Shown: positions 2,473-28,836 of the stretch, in pieces
Layout: the number at the start of each line of letters is the position of its first letter
Position numbering within the stretch: the first letter of the stretch is position 1
Virus record (IMG/VR): IMGVR_UViG_3300034198_010068
Span: 1 to 29,341 of that record
DNA: 29,341 nt
DNA from: a virus
Direction: 5' to 3' (one strand)
The notes under the pieces: generated by a model
What the model was told of the DNA's origin: nothing
Database searches by the model: none
Seen by the model: only the letters and a program-made list of their open reading frames with translations
Made by a program: the position numbers and the translations under genes

Positions 2473-4238
2473 TGGCTATTCCTTGGCCGTCTAGCCCAAC
2501 TGTAGGTCAAACTTTTACCTATGGTTCTATTACTTATACCTGGAATGGTGTTGCTTGGATCAATACTGTAACTAACACTCCTGCGACTGTTGGTTCTGTC
2601 GCTGTTACTGCACCTATAGTGAATACTGGCACTCCTACTGCACCTGTTATTGGTATTAGTCAGTCTGGTTTGACTATTGCGGAGTCTCAGGTAACTAATC
2701 TTGTTTCTGATTTAGCTGGTAAAGCATCATTAGGTGCTGCAAACGCTTTTACTGTTGGTGGCCATGTAATCACAAACGCTGCAACAGCAGTAGTGCCGTT
2801 AGTTGTCAAAGGTGCATCAGGGCAAAGTGCTAACTTGCAGGAATGGCAAAACTCGGCAGGTGGAACAGCAGCGAAAATAACATCATCAGGAGATGCCGCA
2901 TTTGCAGCTGTCGCACTTGGTAATGGAACTATTTATGGTTCGTCATCTTGGTTGAATGTTGGTTTGACTAACGCTGCTCAAATTGGCGCAATAATCAAAG
3001 GTGCTGCTTCTCAGTCAGCAGATTTATTACAGATACAAAACTCTGGTGGAACTGTTATAACAAAGGTGGGTTCTACAGGCGATTTAACAACAGGTTATGT
3101 TTATGGGTCAGGTTTGCGTGATACTGCTGCAACTGGCCCATACATCAATACCACAGCAACAAACATTTTATTGAACGCTAGAACAGCAACAAATAAAGGT
3201 TTAATTATTCAAGGTGCTGCATCTCAGTCTGTCAACTTGCAGGAATGGCAGGATTCTGCTGGAACAGTTCTAGCAAGTATTTCATCTGCTGGTGCATCTA
3301 ACTTTGCATCTATGGTCGCTTCTGGAACTGCAAGGGCTAGTGCTGGTTTAGGTTCATCATCAGTTGCATTAAGCACTATAGTCTCTAACGTAACTGCTGG
3401 ACATCTAGTTCTCCAAAATATATCTACCGCCCCAAACGCAGGAACTGGCGGTGGCACACTCTATGTTGATACAGGTGCTTTGAAGTATCGTGGAACATCA
3501 GGGTCAGCTGCAACTATTGTAAATGCTGATGGCACAATGGCTGGTGGCTCATTCACAGGTGGAACACTAACAAGCAACCTAACTCTCGTAGCAGGTAACA
3601 CATCCATCTATCCACTCACTTTTCAAACAAATACTGGAACACCAACAGCATCTGCTGGAACAATGGACTATGACGGCGATAAATTCTATGCAGTAACATC
3701 AGGAACAACTACAGGTAGGCTCATGCTACCTATCAAAGCCTGGGCTTACTCTAACGCCAACGCAACTTCAGCAACAACAAATACTGCCCAATCTATCTTC
3801 CCTGTAGGTGCAAGAACTCTGCCATTAGAAGCAGGTAAAACCTATTATTTCCGTCTAAATCTTGGCGCAAACTTTACCTTCTCTGCTGTTCCAGCATCAA
3901 TCCAGTTAGTGCCAACATTCAGCAACACACCTGTAAGCATTTACTACAACGCCATGTTTATTTCTGGAACTTCAGGTGGTGTGCAATCATTCAGAGCTAC
4001 CGCTACTACTGCACAAAACATCAGCCCAACGCTCGGTTCTACTACATCTAACTCCACCATTGTTATTGAAGGCTATTTCCAAAGCAACGCCACTACTGGT
4101 GGAACAGTTGAATTCAAATATCAGATCAATACTGGTGGTGGTTCTTCTGCAACCATACTTGCCAACTCTTATGAAGAAATAGTGAAGATTGGAACTGGTG
4201 CTTCTGCACCGCTAGTAGTATCAGGAAGCTGGTCATAA
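2472..4238 (+). CDS. Tail fibre-like protein with three internal repeats
   Basis: This 588-aa protein begins with a short Pro/Trp-rich module (PSSPTVGQTF, YTWNGVAWI), typical of phage proteins that start fibres. Residues of about 109-145, 172-208 and 243-279 carry three related repeats of the pattern KGAxxQSxxLxxxQxSxGT, spaced 63 and 71 residues apart. This repeat occurs in trimeric fibre shafts. The remainder is Thr/Ser/Ala/Gly-rich, and a beta-rich C-terminal domain of about 170 residues (from AWAYSNANATSATTN) may form the tip. No Cys is seen. It probably trimerises and takes part in host recognition. It is one base overlapped with both neighbours. Confidence 0.7.
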   Translation: MAIPWPSSPTVGQTFTYGSITYTWNGVAWINTVTNTPATVGSVAVTAPIVNTGTPTAPVIGISQSGLTIAESQVTNLVSDLAGKASLGAANAFTVGGHVITNAATAVVPLVVKGASGQSANLQEWQNSAGGTAAKITSSGDAAFAAVALGNGTIYGSSSWLNVGLTNAAQIGAIIKGAASQSADLLQIQNSGGTVITKVGSTGDLTTGYVYGSGLRDTAATGPYINTTATNILLNARTATNKGLIIQGAASQSVNLQEWQDSAGTVLASISSAGASNFASMVASGTARASAGLGSSSVALSTIVSNVTAGHLVLQNISTAPNAGTGGGTLYVDTGALKYRGTSGSAATIVNADGTMAGGSFTGGTLTSNLTLVAGNTSIYPLTFQTNTGTPTASAGTMDYDGDKFYAVTSGTTTGRLMLPIKAWAYSNANATSATTNTAQSIFPVGARTLPLEAGKTYYFRLNLGANFTFSAVPASIQLVPTFSNTPVSIYYNAMFISGTSGGVQSFRATATTAQNISPTLGSTTSNSTIVIEGYFQSNATTGGTVEFKYQINTGGGSSATILANSYEEIVKIGTGASAPLVVSGSWS

Positions 4239-16168: not shown

Positions 16169-16416
16169 TGACTGAGATTAAACGCCCTAATAATAGTGAA
16201 CTTTTATTAAAAATTGTTAATGATATGGCTGAGATAAAGACAGATATTGCTGTTATCAAGAAGGATGTCACTATTCAGTCTGATTTGGTTATTGACCATG
16301 AGATGCGTATTAGGGAGTTGGAGAAAGCTCGCTGGCAGTCAGCTTGGGTTACTGCTGTGCTTTCTGCTGTTATTACTTCGGCAATTGTTGGAGTGTTAGT
16401 GAAACTTATTCAATAG
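16168..16416 (+). CDS. XhlA-like membrane-associated protein (holin-like)
   Basis: The GTG start at 16168 overlaps the preceding TAG. The 82-aa protein has a helical, charged N-terminal region (about residues 1-55) with repeated heptads (NDMAEIKTDIAVIKKDV), then a C-terminal membrane segment (about 58-80: WVTAVLSAVITSAIVGVLV). This is the layout of XhlA-type proteins, which act with a holin and endolysin in lysis. It opens the lysis module. Confidence 0.72.
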   Translation: MTEIKRPNNSELLLKIVNDMAEIKTDIAVIKKDVTIQSDLVIDHEMRIRELEKARWQSAWVTAVLSAVITSAIVGVLVKLIQ

Positions 16417-16425
16417 GAAGGTATT

Positions 16426-17595
16426 ATGCCAAAGTTGACAAGACTTTTGTTTGTTTTGTTTTTGGCATTTGCACCGATTCTGACCTTTACACCTACGGCA
16501 CAGGCAGAACCCTTACAGGGTTTAGGTGTAGATGTTTATACGTTTGATCCGTCAGCGTTACCTGAGAGACAGCCTTATACGCTTTGTGAAGGTGCTTGGA
16601 CTTCTGTGTCTAATGTTGACCATGATTGGGGTGGCGATATTGTTGCTGGCTGTCAATCAGATTTTGTGGTTATTCATTATTACGGCTACATTACTTTAGA
16701 TTATTCGGGTGATGTGTGGTTTCAGTCTTTGGCTGATGATGGTTTTGTTATGTCTATTGGTGATGAGACTGTTATTGATGATTGGACTTTGAAGGGTTGT
16801 TCTGGTTCTTCTGGTGTTCATTCTTTTGAAGCTGGTGTGTCTCAAAAGTTTGATGCTTGGTGGTATGAGTATGGTGGTGGGGCTTGTAATATTTTGTATG
16901 CCAATGTTGGTTTTAATTGGGGTGTTGTTCCTGAGTCAGCGTTTTCTAGGGATGTTGTTGAACCGCCTGTGGTTGTTCCGCCAGTTGTAGAGCCGCCTAT
17001 CGTTGAACCACCTATCGTTGAACCACCGATTGTTGAACCACCAGTAGTTGAGCCACCTGTGGTTGAACCTGTTGACCCTGAGCCACCGATTGAGCCTGAG
17101 CCGCCAGTCGTTGAACCGCCTGTGGTTGTTCCGCCAGTTGTTGAACCTGAGATTCCTGAAGTTCCTGTTGTGCCACCTGTAATCAAACCTGAGCCTGAGC
17201 CATCTATTGTTGATGTTGATTTGACTGAGATTGATCCACAGAGCCTGTCAGAAGAAGATGTGGCTTTACTTATGGCTGATGCTTTACAGACCTTTGAGAC
17301 GGCTGTTGAAGGCTCGGATGAGTATGTCCAGGCTTTAGAGCAGTTGATGATTGTTGCTCAGGCTGACGATATTGTGGTTTCTGAAGAATTGGCTAGTGTG
17401 CCTGTGTTGGGTGCAACAATTGTTGGTTTGACTAATGCTTTTAATGCTTTAGGTAACTTTGGTGCAGATATGTCTCCGAAGGCTAGACATAAAGCTAAAC
17501 AGGAAGTTGTGGCAGCTGTTATTGTCACACAAATAGCAACTACGGCAGTTGGGCTGACTGCTTCAGCACCATCATCTATTAGGAGAATAAAGTGA
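16426..17595 (+). CDS. Secreted protein with PA14-like domain and proline-rich repeats
   Basis: The start is set by AGGAAGGTATT. The 389-aa protein has a signal peptide with a likely cleavage after Ala27 (PTAQA). Residues about 60-165 resemble a PA14 domain: DVWFQSLADDGFVMSIGDE followed by VIDDW and a Cys-bearing C-terminal strand. Residues about 180-260 are a Pro/Glu/Val repeat tract (units such as VEPPIVEPP). The rest is helix plus a hydrophobic stretch near the C-terminus (VVAAVIVTQIATTAVGL). PA14 domains bind sugars or sit in glycosidases and adhesins. Placement within the lysis genes suggests action on the outside of the cell wall or on the virion. Confidence 0.7.
   Translation: MPKLTRLLFVLFLAFAPILTFTPTAQAEPLQGLGVDVYTFDPSALPERQPYTLCEGAWTSVSNVDHDWGGDIVAGCQSDFVVIHYYGYITLDYSGDVWFQSLADDGFVMSIGDETVIDDWTLKGCSGSSGVHSFEAGVSQKFDAWWYEYGGGACNILYANVGFNWGVVPESAFSRDVVEPPVVVPPVVEPPIVEPPIVEPPIVEPPVVEPPVVEPVDPEPPIEPEPPVVEPPVVVPPVVEPEIPEVPVVPPVIKPEPEPSIVDVDLTEIDPQSLSEEDVALLMADALQTFETAVEGSDEYVQALEQLMIVAQADDIVVSEELASVPVLGATIVGLTNAFNALGNFGADMSPKARHKAKQEVVAAVIVTQIATTAVGLTASAPSSIRRIK
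16950..17200 (+). repeat. DNA tract coding for Pro-Glu-Val repeats
   Basis: Repeated units based on GTTGAACCACC / GTTGAGCC encode Val-Glu-Pro-Pro motifs in the PA14-type gene. Repeat number is likely to vary between related phages by slippage. On the other strand the same tract reads as a Gly/Thr-rich open frame, which I treat as a shadow. Confidence 0.75.
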
Positions 17596-18225: not shown

Positions 18226-18515
18226 TGAACTGGAAGTCTAGGGCTAAAGATGTTGTGGCGGTTATGGCTACGCTTGCTTGGCGTGGTTTTGGTATTTTTC
18301 TTTACATCCTGGGTGGCTCTATGGGTGTTGGTGCAGCTCTAACAGGCAACTGGGTTACAGGTGTGTTGGTTGCTTGGGGAACGCTGATGCTCGGTGTTAT
18401 CGGTGTTATCGGTTATGCGATTGCTACTACTGGTAAAGCTACTAAGGAAGATGTTGCTAAGGGTTCTCAGGATGCCATCCAGAAGGCTAAAGATTCCGCC
18501 GAGAAGCAGAAATAG
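18225..18515 (+). CDS. Two-TM membrane protein, holin candidate
   Basis: The 96-aa protein overlaps the endopeptidase by one base. Two Gly-rich membrane segments lie at about residues 8-38 (MATLAWRGFGIFLYILGG) and 44-66 (VLVAWGTLMLGVIGVIG), followed by a charged helical tail with many Lys/Glu. This matches small phage holins. Its last 29 bases overlap the end of the minus-strand WhiB gene. It is the final gene of the rightward late region. Confidence 0.75.
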   Translation: MNWKSRAKDVVAVMATLAWRGFGIFLYILGGSMGVGAALTGNWVTGVLVAWGTLMLGVIGVIGYAIATTGKATKEDVAKGSQDAIQKAKDSAEKQK

Positions 18516-18792
18516 ACCTTTGAAAGTTTCTTCTTTCATCTGGATCTAATCCACCCCAAATACCGAATTCTTCTCTAGCTTCAAGAGCATACATTCTGCA
18601 ATCTTCTATTATTGGGCAGCTTTGGCAGAGTGATTTTGCTATCTGTGTATCTTCTCTGCGTTTGATTTCTCCGCCTTCTGGGAAGAATGTGTCAGGGAAG
18701 TTTTGGCATGGCACTTCGCCTATTTCTTCTATTTTCTCTAATAGTGAAAATAATTTTCGTGAAATGGGTATCATTTGTCGGTGGTCTGTCAT
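18487..18792 (-). CDS. WhiB-family iron-sulfur regulator
   Basis: This is the only clearly leftward gene, 101 aa. Four Cys lie at 29, 56, 59 and 65 (CQSCPIIEDC holding the last three), spaced as in WhiB proteins that bind a 4Fe-4S cluster. GIWGG at 77-81 is the WhiB signature turn, followed by basic residues. WhiB proteins are found in Actinobacteria and their phages; the WhiB of mycobacteriophage TM4 interferes with host WhiB2. This protein could modulate host gene expression or superinfection. The start at 18792 is preferred over Met7 because a promoter places its transcript start at that ATG. It runs convergent to the holin gene with a 29-base overlap. Confidence 0.93.
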   Translation of the reverse strand: MTDHRQMIPISRKLFSLLEKIEEIGEVPCQNFPDTFFPEGGEIKRREDTQIAKSLCQSCPIIEDCRMYALEAREEFGIWGGLDPDERRNFQRSISASRRNL

Positions 18793-21394: not shown

Positions 21395-21454
21395 GATGTT
21401 AAACCTACGCAAAAACGCCCTTAAACGGCTTGTAGGGGGCTTTTCATGTCTGTA
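21395..21454 (+). CDS. Possible 19-aa leader peptide of the replication gene
   Basis: GAAGGATAAAAG precedes ATG 21395, and the frame runs 19 codons to TAG 21452-21454, overlapping the start of the next gene. The encoded peptide is basic (MLNLRKNALKRLVGGFSCL). A hairpin GCCC (21417-21420) with GGGC (21437-21440) would hide the AGGGGG ribosome site of the replication gene; ribosomes passing through the leader could open it. This is inference from layout. Confidence 0.35.
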
Positions 21455-22237
21455 GAGATGATTAGCCTTGTTTTGAATAATAGTCGTGCTGAAGGGCGAG
21501 CAAAACTTGTTTTGATTGGTATAGCTAATCATCATGGCGATAACGGTGCTTGGCCATCTATCGCTACTTTAGCTAGATACGCTAACTCATCTGAGAGATC
21601 TATCAAACGTGATTTGCAGTATCTTCAGGAACTTGGCGAGATAACTATTGAGATTAATGGCTCTGATTTTGGTGGTCAATACAAGACAAATAAGTATTGG
21701 ATTGTTCTGTCAGGGGTGACAGATCAGGTAAGCAGGGGTGACAGACTGGGTAAATCAGGGGTGACAGATCTGGCACACAAACCTTTAAAAGAAACATATA
21801 TAAACCTATATGCTCATTTTGACGAATTTTGGAATGTGTATCCACGCAAGGTTTCTAAGCGAGCTGCGTTGAAAGCATTTGAGTCTGCTTTGGCTAGGGC
21901 TACGCATGACGAGATTTTGGCTGGTGCTATTCGGTTTGCTAATGACCCTAATCTTCCGCCAGCAGAGTTTATTCCGTATCCGACAACCTGGTTGAATGGT
22001 GATCGTTGGGGTGATGCTTTGCTTCCTGAGAGAACTAAGTCTCGTGATGAGTTGATTGCTGAAGCTAGAGCAGCTGAAGAAACAAGACGTGAAAGAGATA
22101 GAACGATTGCTCGTCAGAGAGCATTAGAAGAAAAGGCTCGTGAAGAAGAAGTTAAAAAGAATGCTCCTAAACTTTGTGAACATGAACGTATCGTCTATAA
22201 CTGCTATGACTGCAAGTTGCAAAAGAAGAATAAGTAA
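21446..22237 (+). CDS. Replication initiator / replisome organiser-like protein
   Basis: The 263-aa protein starts with ATG after AGGGGG. Residues about 20-70 form a winged helix (NGAWPSIATLARYANSSERSI). A linker at 88-112 contains three Val-Thr-Asp/Gly-Asp-Arg units encoded by DNA repeats. Residues about 124-190 hold the FDEFWNVYPRKVSKRAALK motif and YPTTWLNGDRW, typical of phage replisome organisers. The tail is charged helix ending in a Cys-rich zinc-like motif (Cys244-x-His246, Cys253-x2-Cys256). Such proteins bind the origin and load helicase. Iterons lie within its own gene, as with lambda O. Confidence 0.78.
   Translation: MSVEMISLVLNNSRAEGRAKLVLIGIANHHGDNGAWPSIATLARYANSSERSIKRDLQYLQELGEITIEINGSDFGGQYKTNKYWIVLSGVTDQVSRGDRLGKSGVTDLAHKPLKETYINLYAHFDEFWNVYPRKVSKRAALKAFESALARATHDEILAGAIRFANDPNLPPAEFIPYPTTWLNGDRWGDALLPERTKSRDELIAEARAAEETRRERDRTIARQRALEEKAREEEVKKNAPKLCEHERIVYNCYDCKLQKKNK
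21711..21834 (+). other. Candidate origin of replication: three iterons plus AT-rich segment
   Basis: The 13-mer CAGGGGTGACAGA occurs exactly at 21711-21723, 21733-21745 and 21756-21768, spaced 22 and 23 bases (about two helical turns). Copy 1 is part of an inverted repeat, CTGTCA / TGACAG (21707-21722). An AT-rich stretch (about 21778-21834) follows and could be the unwinding element. The array is inside the replication gene. The origin role is inferred. Confidence 0.65.
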
Positions 22238-24930: not shown

Positions 24931-25119
24931 ATGGATTTTAATGATTGGCTAAAAATAGGCAGAGATAACGCTTGGGTAAGTGCAACTGTCTGTGATACGC
25001 ATGAGGGTTTACCTATGAGTGAAGCTGAAGTAAAAGAATTTGAAGAAGGAGATCCTTGTATTCATGCGTTGCGTTTGTATGAAACTAAGGAACAAAAGAT
25101 AGAAGTAGAAGGAGAGTAA
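24931..25119 (+). CDS. Small acidic protein, 62 aa
   Basis: ATG follows TTAGGAAAATAA directly after the methyltransferase stop. The protein, MDFNDWLKIGRDNAWVSATVCDTHEGLPMS and then a Glu-rich tail, resembles short actinophage proteins with a WVSxxxCxTHxG core. One Cys-His pair could bind metal. One-base overlap with the next gene. Confidence 0.6.
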   Translation: MDFNDWLKIGRDNAWVSATVCDTHEGLPMSEAEVKEFEEGDPCIHALRLYETKEQKIEVEGE

Positions 25120-25253: not shown

Positions 25254-25446
25254 TGCACAACAAGCAGTAAAGCTATTGCGTGACGATAACCTGGTTTGGT
25301 CTAACGATTTTGACTTGGTTCGCCACAAGATAGCAGACGTTATTGAAGAAGCGAACACGATAACTCATCCAGTTATTATGGCTACTATCAGAGATTTATG
25401 CCATCATTTGACTAGCCCTGTGGTATTGGAGAAACCTAATGCTTGA
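25246..25446 (+). CDS. Small helical protein, 66 aa
   Basis: I choose ATG 25246, which has GAAAGGG upstream and overlaps the preceding stop; an in-frame upstream codon at 25207 lies inside the membrane-protein gene. The product begins MNNAQQAVKLLRDDN and is helical, with HKIADVIEEANTITHP in the centre. No family is known. Confidence 0.58.
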   Translation: MNNAQQAVKLLRDDNLVWSNDFDLVRHKIADVIEEANTITHPVIMATIRDLCHHLTSPVVLEKPNA

Positions 25447-25663
25447 AGGTTTAGCACCATCTGGCCGCCAGTATCCCTGCAAAATCAACACTATTTTAGA
25501 GTCTCTTTCTGAAGCCGATAGAAAAATCTTGGTTGAAGCGTTAGACTCGCCTGTGTGGAATAATTCTGCTCTTACAACTGCTCTAAATGAGCGTGGTTTG
25601 AAAGTTAGTCGGTATTCAGTTGATGCCCATACAGGAAAGCGTTGCTCATGTTGGAGAACTTAA
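25439..25663 (+). CDS. Small putative DNA-binding helix-turn-helix protein, 74 aa
   Basis: ATG overlaps the previous stop. Residues 14-60 read CKINTILESLSEADRKILVEAL, then NNSALTTALNERGLKVSRYS, and the end is KRCSCWRT. This is a common small actinophage family with a helix-turn-helix outline and a terminal Cys pair. Its precise function is unknown. Confidence 0.65.
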   Translation: MLEGLAPSGRQYPCKINTILESLSEADRKILVEALDSPVWNNSALTTALNERGLKVSRYSVDAHTGKRCSCWRT

Positions 25664-27025: not shown

Positions 27026-27469
27026 ATGCCAAAAATAAATGAATCTTGGTTTACAAGTAATGCTGATGATTGGGGAACACCACAAAAATTATTTGATGAT
27101 CTTAATAAAGAATTTGGTTTTACTGTTGATGTTTGCGCTAATGAACATAATTTTAAATTAGATAATTATTTTGATATTGAACAAGATGGTTTAGCTCAGG
27201 TTTGGGATGGTGTGGTTTGGTGTAATCCGCCTTATGGTCGAACTATTAAATTTTGGATGGCTAAAGCTTTGGATGCTTGGAAAAATGGGGCTACTGTTGT
27301 TTGTTTAGTTCCAGCTAGGACAGACACTATTTGGTGGCATGATTACGCTGCTAAAGCTAGTGAAATTAGATTTATTAAAGGTAGATTGAAATATGAACAA
27401 AATAGAGTAGCTGGCACTTCTGCCCCTTTTCCTTCGGCAATAGTTATTTTTAGATCTGAAGGAGAATAA
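27026..27469 (+). CDS. DNA N6-adenine methyltransferase (phage Dam type)
   Basis: Start is ATG 27026 after AAGGAGAATAAA. The 147-aa protein matches the phage Dam family: DDWGTPQKLFDDLNKEFGF, VDVCANE, the catalytic NPPY at residues 67-70 and GRTIKFWMAK. It is compact, with the catalytic motif following the substrate-binding region as in the family. It would methylate adenine in phage DNA and may protect it from restriction. Together with Dcm it gives two modification types. Confidence 0.9.
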   Translation: MPKINESWFTSNADDWGTPQKLFDDLNKEFGFTVDVCANEHNFKLDNYFDIEQDGLAQVWDGVVWCNPPYGRTIKFWMAKALDAWKNGATVVCLVPARTDTIWWHDYAAKASEIRFIKGRLKYEQNRVAGTSAPFPSAIVIFRSEGE

Positions 27470-27639
27470 TGCCAGTCTATGAATATCAATGCTCTAATGG
27501 ACATAAATTTATTATTACTGAACCAATAGCTAATAGCCATAAACCACCTACAAAGTGCAAACAATGTAAGGAAGTTTTGGTTAGACTATTTGGTAGCCCT
27601 AGCATCCAGTTCAAGGGGACTGGTTGGGGTAAAGATTAG
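27469..27639 (+). CDS. FmdB-like zinc ribbon protein, 56 aa
   Basis: ATG at 27469 overlaps the Dam stop; TAG at 27637-27639. The protein starts MPVYEYQCSNGHKF, the FmdB family start, with Cys30-x2-Cys33 in KCKQCKE and an end FKGTGWGKD. It probably binds zinc and may regulate transcription; its role in phages is unproven. Confidence 0.75.
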   Translation: MPVYEYQCSNGHKFIITEPIANSHKPPTKCKQCKEVLVRLFGSPSIQFKGTGWGKD

Positions 27640-27653
27640 AATGAAAAGGGATT

Positions 27654-28157
27654 ATGAAAATAGCATTGTGGCTTTCAGCGTTATCTTTGGTTGTAACCAG
27701 TATTTTGGTTGGTTGTAGCACTACTAAACCATCTGCTCACGCACAGTCAATAAATTTGGTTACAGAACTTAGAGAACAACGTCAAGCTAAAGATTTGGTT
27801 AAAATAACAAAACATTTGGTTCGGTTCGCAGATAAAACACCTTATGTGTTTTCTGGTTCAACAAAATTTGGTTGGGACTGTTCTGGTTTGGTTGTATGGA
27901 CTTATAAACAGATCGGCGTAAAGCTGCCACACTCGGCAGATAAACAAGCTCATCTAGGTAAAAGAGTTAGTATAGCTAAACCAGGGGATATCGTTGTTTT
28001 TGCTTATAAGGGCAGAACAGACTTTAATCATTCAGCGATCTATTTAGGTAACGGCAAAATCATTAACGCTAACAGACTGTATGGCACAACAAAAATTCAG
28101 TCATTAAAAGAATTTGGTTCAAATCAAATTCGATTCGTAAGGATAATAAATGAGTAA
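27654..28157 (+). CDS. NlpC/P60-type cell-wall hydrolase with lipoprotein signal
   Basis: Start ATG after AAAAGGGATT. The 167-aa protein has a lipobox LVGC (Cys21) after a hydrophobic segment, so it is a likely lipoprotein. The NlpC/P60 pattern follows: Cys76 in WDCSGLV, His126 in FNHSAIYL and INAN as the third polar residue. Such enzymes cut stem peptides in peptidoglycan. A phage copy far from the lysis module may modify the host wall, block superinfection or aid lysis. It shows a high density of ATTTGGTT octamers. Confidence 0.85.
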   Translation: MKIALWLSALSLVVTSILVGCSTTKPSAHAQSINLVTELREQRQAKDLVKITKHLVRFADKTPYVFSGSTKFGWDCSGLVVWTYKQIGVKLPHSADKQAHLGKRVSIAKPGDIVVFAYKGRTDFNHSAIYLGNGKIINANRLYGTTKIQSLKEFGSNQIRFVRIINE

Positions 28158-28568
28158 ATTAGAAAAAGCATTATTTGGTTTAAATTTGGTTCTAATCGGT
28201 GTCATTATTTGGTTGATATTTGGTTTCTTCAATAATTCGGTTGAAAATTGTTGGGATAAATACCAGACAGAAAATGAAGCAATAATGCATTGTGAAGATC
28301 ATAATGAGTAGATTTCCGAAACCTTGCTTAGACTGTGGAGAGCTTACCTCTGGCGGTAATAGGTGTGATGAACACGAAAATTTGGTTCAACAGCTCCATA
28401 ACGCTAAACGAGCTGCCGTAAAGAAACTGACAGGACAATATTCTGGTGATTACAAGAAAAGGGCTAAATTGGTTAGAGAAACAGCTCTGGTATGTCATTT
28501 GTGTTCTGGGGGCGCTAGGTTTGACGATCCTTGGGTTGCTGATCACGTTAATCCAGGTGAATTTGGTT
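27754..28568 (+). repeat. Cluster of the octamer ATTTGGTT (11 copies; a 12th at 27112)
   Basis: Exact copies start at 27754, 27793, 27814, 27866, 28112, 28173, 28184, 28207, 28218, 28380 and 28561, with a 12th at 27112. All are on the plus strand and in three reading frames, coding Leu-Val, Phe-Gly and Trp-Leu. By scanning, I saw one other copy in the window (25922). 28173/28184 and 28207/28218 are each 11 bases apart. Confidence 0.7.
28150..28311 (+). CDS. Small membrane protein, 53 aa
   Basis: ATG 28150 overlaps the NlpC stop, and TAG is at 28309-28311. Residues about 9-28 (FGLNLVLIGVIIWLIFGFF) form one or two membrane helices, followed by a polar, acidic tail. Four of the ATTTGGTT octamers lie in its first half. 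Confidence 0.62.
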   Translation: MSKLEKALFGLNLVLIGVIIWLIFGFFNNSVENCWDKYQTENEAIMHCEDHNE

Positions 28569-28636
28569 CTGATGCTCTCTTGTTACCTGCGCATAAAAGC
28601 TGTAACGAGAAAAGGGGCAATAAGCCCTTAAACTAA
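28304..28636 (+). CDS. HNH endonuclease
   Basis: I choose ATG 28304 (ATGAGTAG overlap with the previous stop) over the GTG at 28292. The 110-aa protein has two Cys-x2-Cys pairs (CLDCG, CHLCSG) and the HNH core VADHVNPGE, LLPAHKSCNEKRGN. Phage HNH proteins of this type help terminase cut packaging sites; here it is far from where the terminase is inferred to be, unless the genome ends lie nearby. A terminator follows. Confidence 0.85.
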   Translation: MSRFPKPCLDCGELTSGGNRCDEHENLVQQLHNAKRAAVKKLTGQYSGDYKKRAKLVRETALVCHLCSGGARFDDPWVADHVNPGEFGSDALLLPAHKSCNEKRGNKPLN

Positions 28637-28644
28637 GATCTGTC

Positions 28645-28685
28645 TATCTGGTTCAAAGATTAGTTGTGATACCTAACGCCAGATA
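28645..28685 (+). other. Hairpin in the spacer after the HNH gene
   Basis: TATCTGG (28645-28651) pairs exactly with CCAGATA (28679-28685), with an inner TTAG/CTAA pair. Nothing else is seen in 28637-28689. It could be part of an RNA end or a protein site. Confidence 0.45.
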
Positions 28686-28689
28686 ACAA

Positions 28690-28730
28690 GCTAAACCCCC
28701 TAAACCTCTCTCTTTTAGGGGGTTTTTAGC
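28690..28730 (+). terminator. Strong rho-independent terminator after the HNH gene
   Basis: AAACCCCCTAAA (28693-28704) pairs perfectly with TTTAGGGGGTTT (28714-28725), with a TTTTT tract and a GCT/AGC extension. It separates the replication operon from the small-gene operon. Confidence 0.9.
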
Positions 28731-28836
28731 TTTATAACGGTTTTATAACGACATTTATAAATCTGCTTGTGTTATTGCCGCAACTTGTTATTGTCTATCT
28801 TGTAGCTAACAACAGCTACCTAAACAAAGGGAAAAA
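28731..28836 (+). promoter_or_regulatory. Upstream region of the small-gene operon: tandem repeat, inverted repeat
   Basis: TTTATAACG is repeated in tandem at 28731-28739 and 28742-28750 (11-base period), and a related ATTTATAA follows. GTAGCT (28802-28807) and AGCTAC (28814-28819) form a 6-bp inverted repeat. A weak -10 (TATCTT at 28796) may be present. AAGGGAAAA precedes the 28837 ATG. These look like operator or regulator sites, but the promoter itself is not clear. Confidence 0.45.

Follow-up and report, generated by a model that had tools for sequence, protein, structure and literature searches.

A cluster of ATTTGGTT repeats at 27112-28568 is a real feature of the 29,341-base virus record from IMG/VR that was analysed here over its whole length (the window), and comparison with related phages indicates that the octamers represent, in this DNA, a tandem array of short, asymmetric sites that is conserved among those relatives. 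The array is almost certainly a genuine element at the level of the nucleic acid, and very probably one of double-stranded DNA to which protein would bind. Most likely it serves as a docking strip for a putative DNA-binding protein controlling the next genes. That it is a transcriptional operator, a head-to-tail binding array belonging to a regulated promoter, is a proposition we regard as evenly balanced; binding, assembly and control are what we infer from directly observed properties of the array, namely its pitch, single orientation, position, conservation and lineage-specific cores.

Recounting the octamer across the whole window gave 16 copies on the plus strand and none of its reverse complement. 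Twelve exact copies, all on the plus strand, make up the cluster, in agreement with the sequence-only reading of this DNA, and the other four lie at 16283, 22936, 24479 and 25922, where that reading had reported a single additional copy. Its estimate that base composition would give well under one copy in the cluster region held at 0.07 under an order-0 model and 0.5 under an order-2 model (Markov orders above 2 merely reproduce the sites there). Dinucleotide shuffles of the whole window, counted on both strands, yielded a mean of 2.16 copies and a maximum of 6, compared with the 16 observed.

The strand bias inside genes is weak evidence, because TTGGTT is itself distributed 66:2 between the strands over the whole window and nearly all genes run rightward. 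Among the genes examined, only that of a WhiB-like regulator (18490-18792) runs leftward, and a member of this family occurs in nearly all relatives. The fair null, chosen because the rightward genes and the TTGGTT ratio make in-gene strand bias uninformative, was thus a synonymous-codon shuffle of each gene in which the proteins and each gene's codon counts were kept. Over the five cluster genes this gave 3.10 ± 1.48 (s.d.) copies, and the observed 12 was reached in 0 of 2000 shuffles; the encoded proteins therefore do not explain the cluster, as had been proposed earlier from the three reading frames that the copies use (Leu-Val, Phe-Gly and, as rechecked here, Ile-Trp-Leu). The same shuffle applied to the genes left of position 25000 found 1 octamer where 2.1 were expected, and for the looser core TTYGGTY the metallophosphatase gene upstream of the cluster likewise has more copies than expected (7 versus 1.1).

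The features of the region are collected in Table 1. The spacings of 11, 11 and 21 bases between copies, originally singled out as close to whole helical turns, were recomputed as 11, 11, 23 and 21. Within the densest block, which falls inside a gene for a small predicted membrane protein (28150-28311), the octamers are spaced 11, 23 and 11 apart; apart from this block, the in-gene sites of the window are only loosely phased. Altogether, 18 TTYGGTY cores lie in the window genes just upstream of the intergenic array site, the place at which the array of relatives begins about 5-65 bp past the HNH stop codon. The sites of the window clade have partly moved into neighbouring coding sequences, and in the window itself the tidy intergenic array has decayed. 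A separate set of 15-bp tandem repeats at 16985-17100 encodes a Pro-Pro-Val-Val-Glu stretch of a putative surface protein.

Table 1. Repeat sites and neighbouring features of the window, from left to right.
Feature	Position	Strand	Context
ATTTGGTT copy 1	27112..27119	+	Dam methylase gene
Two more TTTGGTT cores (27686, 27704)	27686..27710	+	NlpC/P60 gene start
ATTTGGTT copy 2	27754..27761	+	NlpC/P60 gene
ATTTGGTT copies 3 and 4 (27793, 27814; 21 apart) and overlapping TTCGGTT at 27820	27793..27826	+	NlpC/P60 gene
ATTTGGTT copy 5 (27866) and TTTGGTT at 27887	27866..27893	+	NlpC/P60 gene
ATTTGGTT copy 6	28112..28119	+	NlpC/P60 gene end
Densest block, ATTTGGTT copies 7-10 (28173, 28184, 28207, 28218) and TTCGGTT at 28236	28173..28242	+	
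HNH endonuclease gene	28304..28636	+	
ATTTGGTT copy 11	28380..28387	+	HNH gene
ATTTGGTT copy 12	28561..28568	+	HNH gene
Decayed post-HNH array remnant, one TCTGGTT (28647-28653)	28637..28690	+	Tidy array here in relatives
Terminator-like hairpin and T-run past array site	28690..28728	+	
Direct repeat TTATAACG-N3-TTATAACG, 11 bp apart	28732..28750	+	Conserved beside promoter in relatives
Promoter-like TTGTGT-N16-TATTGT before small-ORF operon (28837 onward)	28767..28794	+	Consensus match, below generic-scan threshold

Relatives were taken from IMG/VR and found through the metallophosphatase and then by an alignment scan with the HNH family; a first search with the NlpC protein as query returned no match. 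The metallophosphatase relatives form two groups, the window clade and the others (clade B and a 48%-GC group). Window-clade members whose contigs extend to the HNH gene are 66-94% identical and have, beside that gene, 2-12 octamers per 1.5 kb (only 2-4 in several of them). The positions of the octamers differ between genomes, some lying in genes that other members lack. Few octamers occur in clade B and the 48%-GC group, and elsewhere in the window and its relatives their density is low (0-2 per kb). Clade B has homologous HNH and NlpC proteins without the octamers, so the motif is not a consequence of the proteins.

The HNH-family scan revealed dozens of uncultured phages with the array in the same slot behind the HNH gene. 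In these relatives the unit is intergenic: the core, TYYGGTY, takes up 7 bp and the A/T-rich spacer 4 bp, so that the pitch is 11 bp. Over 37 loci, 238 core sites lie on the strand of the HNH gene (plus) and 2 on the opposite strand. Of the spacings between neighbouring sites, 93 equal 11 exactly, and the best period is 11.2 bp, with peaks near 22-23, 34, 45 and 56. The paired pattern TYYGGTY-N4-TYYGGTY was found at 45 places, spread over 13 of 26 related genomes; within each genome nearly all belong to a single cluster and lie on the HNH strand. The backwards control gave 1 place. The tandem operator of an OmpR/PhoB-like or other head-to-tail regulator would likewise consist of asymmetric direct repeats about 11 bp long. 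In one relative (L030), the HNH stop codon is followed directly by a non-coding TTCGGTTGAAATTTGGTTAGTATTTGGTTGTATCACTTTTGGTTATTTGGTTGTAAGTTCGGTT and then by a terminator-like hairpin; several genomes have a second array farther right (14213-14330 in L030). Of the DNA-level roles first suggested for the octamers, the binding array with near-helical spacing is upheld by these intergenic arrays, for which codons are no explanation, and the origin, packaging mark and Chi-like or KOPS-like signal are not.

The core differs by lineage. It is TTTGGTT in the window clade and in L288 (24 units within 300 nt), TTCGGTY in L298-L317, and TCTGGTY in L289, L290, L292, L295 and L345, while L296 and L297 carry TTTGGTT every 25-27 bp. 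Where the HNH protein is at least about 57% identical the arrays are clear, and at lower identity they are reduced: more distant HNH relatives, at about 49-57%, have 1-5 units of TTCRGTY type in the same slot, and the most distant have none there. Phages with the HNH gene directly beside the terminase (clade B G015 and phiPsal1) likewise have zero arrays. When bacterial genomes were scanned for three TTYGGTY units, the matches listed were mostly isolated or in repeat proteins, and one clearly actinobacterial record was among them.

The sequence that follows the array has its own recurrent features. In many lineages the stretch from the array to the first small ORF contains direct repeats of RTAACG at a distance of 11 bp (the exact 11-bp distance is also seen in L278, L274, L331, L337 and others), and we take these to resemble an activator site of the MtrA/GlnR-like kind. 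At 16 of 40 loci the RTAACG pair is followed, mostly 20-21 bp on, by a -35-like hexamer, these being consensus matches only; the combination is absent at the other 24, and a generic promoter scan made no call for the window promoter. LexA-type palindromes (TCGAACN4GTTCGA) lie about 50-110 bp from many arrays in several lineages (for example, beside the array at L298 3512-3580 and L305 about 3495-3550, and in L287 and L293), and the window has no such box. Boxes of this type also lie near the small terminase gene (TerS) in G010, G019, G021 and G042, some about 100 bp upstream of the terminase. If these are actinobacterial LexA-type boxes, SOS control of both early and late operons is possible.

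From this arrangement, each unit of 7-bp core and 4-bp spacer most likely takes up a single subunit of a sequence-specific protein, encoded by phage or host, and the subunits on successive units would align head to tail along nearly the same side of the DNA. The array would sit between the HNH gene, as the end of a replication/recombination operon, and a promoter with LexA-type, RTAACG and sigma70-like elements that would drive an operon of small, probably early, genes. The bound protein could then determine how the genes past this boundary are transcribed: it might activate the promoter, silence it, or block read-through into the small-gene operon. A presence/absence search for the binder compared 113 families between 26 genomes with an array and 14 others and gave no exact tracker; the best were a pair of genes upstream of repO, present in 25 and 24 of the 26 versus 4 of the 14. 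The small universal protein encoded at 25439-25663 was rejected as the binder because it shows no covariation with the core.

The repeats might instead act in the transcript, as UYYGGUY elements bound by an RNA-binding protein and affecting termination, stability or translation. All sites are oriented with transcription, as such elements would be, and the arrays of the window clade stand just before terminator-like hairpins. However, several lineages have no terminator after the array, an Rfam search returned zero matches, and the 11-bp pitch suits double-stranded DNA well; we know of no RNA-binding array with an 11-nt pitch. We consider action at the RNA level unlikely.

A role as an iteron-type origin, or second origin, bound by the initiator RepO (21446-22234) is also rather improbable. 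Fixed-pitch tandem direct repeats are characteristic of iterons, a phage can have two origins with direct repeats, as in SPP1 (PMC6316719), and full-length RepO is common to the array-bearing window clade. Two of the lowest-GC 150-bp segments of the window are those at 27026 and 28101, as an unwinding element might be, but low GC, true of the window, is inconsistent across relatives, and this idea was rejected. TTTGGTT-N4 arrays with an 11-bp pitch do occur inside initiator genes of unrelated Firmicutes-type prophages and Bacteroides/Clostridia-type elements; however, the Firmicutes cases were found with that same pattern, so that the shared core is partly a matter of selection. The repeats in these initiator genes (11-bp or 33-bp, core TTTGGTT-N4; L085, L102, L132, L147, L442, L452 and L483) give repeated peptides in the Firmicutes-/Bacteroides-type elements, such as NQMATKWQPNG and NQTETKGKPNN.

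What decides against RepO is that its gene has separate iterons. An unbiased lag scan showed that the RepO-like initiator gene contains CAGGGGTGACAG three times, at a spacing of 22-23 bp (at 21711, 21733 and 21756, within 21711-21767), and these are probable lambda-type origin iterons. They recur in relatives with the same RepO N-terminal domain; in Arthrobacter phages the repO iterons have the related core GGGGTG, and phiPsal1 and some clade B genomes have other iteron sequences in repO. The sequence of the array does not follow the DNA-binding domain of the initiator in this way: repO has its own GGGGTGAC iterons, and one array core, TTCGGTY, accompanies unrelated RepO N-termini (G026 versus G028/G031). 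An origin bound by RepO was rejected on these two grounds, and the array is probably not a replication origin. At least three N-terminal and two C-terminal types of RepO were distinguished, and the two halves have been exchanged between phages (G024, G026, G028, G021, G022). A structure model of RepO had a mean pLDDT of 65 and gave generic winged-helix matches only, none of them significant.

Two further explanations appear improbable. The sites could resemble stoperators, at which a repressor on asymmetric sites of a single orientation halts elongation along the genome, and the array sites do share the asymmetry and the single orientation, lie where operons end and have a predicted promoter beside them. 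Stoperators are single 13-bp sites dispersed genomewide in short intergenic gaps, whereas the array sites are clustered in 11-bp tandems; moreover, no immunity repressor or integrase was recognised in the subset of window proteins tested. The array could also be a cosB-like packaging signal bound by the small terminase, the adjacent HNH protein or both, given that an HNH gene adjoins it in every case, that HNH genes are often adjacent to cos, and that the HNH gene is directly beside TerS in clade B and phiPsal1. Against this, phages with the order HNH-cos-TerS have no array, and TerS identity is equal (46-47%) with and without a full array.

The position of cos bears on the same question. It was placed 45-95 bp upstream of TerS because independent contigs end there, and coincident contig starts in metagenomes can thus locate cos without virion data (contigs starting in this interval are G001, G002, G003, G014, G024, G026, G033 and G039). 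So placed, cos is not within a few hundred bp of the array, which lies 2-6 kb off with an operon between. Packaging was rejected by this position and by the TerS comparison, and the array is probably not a cos or packaging site. Finally, the idea that the cluster simply follows from codon usage and protein repeats, on a strand that is T-rich and codes rightward, can be practically dismissed: it would account for the TTGGTT ratio and for several copies being Leu-Val codons, including 21-bp (7-codon) repeats in the NlpC/P60 proteins of relatives, but is refuted by the non-coding arrays and disagrees with both the codon-preserving shuffles and the octamer-free homologues of clade B.

Returning to the operator array, we propose more tentatively that it is a phage control element not described before, in which an array of 11-bp pitch is read by a putative DNA-binding protein, the core is shifted by lineage (TTTGGTT, TTCGGTY, TCTGGTY) with position and pitch kept, and in some phages the sites have spread through neighbouring genes in all frames. 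If true, it would offer a natural series for the joint change of a DNA-binding protein and its many sites. The array is kept across dozens of uncultured freshwater phages related to the Pontimonas phage phiPsal1, an actinobacterial phage and the only cultured-phage relative by the HNH marker (43% identity), and it would mark a regulatory hub where two modules meet, in a group of phages that has hardly been studied by experiment. Its lineage-specific cores form a ready-made set for how a multi-site recognition sequence changes, and its in-gene copies illustrate how genes can accommodate DNA-level sites in each of the three frames.

Among known systems, Chi and KOPS share with the octamers their length and strand specificity; unlike these, which are dispersed genomewide, the array is confined to one or two loci, with a fixed pitch and 0-2 sites per kb elsewhere, so that the early suggestion of a Chi-like or KOPS-like signal falls away. 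At head-to-tail sites of the lambda Xis and P2 Cox type, a small winged-helix protein able to polymerise along DNA binds to short repeats in direct orientation. The array has many more units than these, and no integrase or att site was found beside it. It resembles the iteron arrays of lambda O, SPP1 gp38 and repO itself in its one-orientation direct repeats, AT-rich in the window and near replication genes, and differs from them in lying about 6 kb from the repO iterons and in a core that does not track the RepO N-terminus. Like the stoperators of Cluster A mycobacteriophages (PMC9283540), its sites are asymmetric and follow the direction of transcription, and they lie where operons end and near predicted promoters. 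The repressor of mycobacteriophage L5 is monomeric and binds more than 20 asymmetric sites, the orientation of which matches transcription and matters for function (PMC9283540). The 11-bp tandem arrays at one or two loci are unlike those dispersed single sites. No response regulator was seen among the phage proteins tested, and the core TYYGGTY does not match what we take to be the PHO-box core. In architecture, however, the array is like PHO boxes and OmpR/PhoB operators, with several tandem asymmetric 11-nt units of unequal conservation in a row before a promoter, in its case a predicted one, the direct repeat units of Streptomyces PhoP being 11 nt each (PMC7866108); what sets it apart from PHO boxes is that it is phage-borne and extends to arrays of up to 9-24 units.
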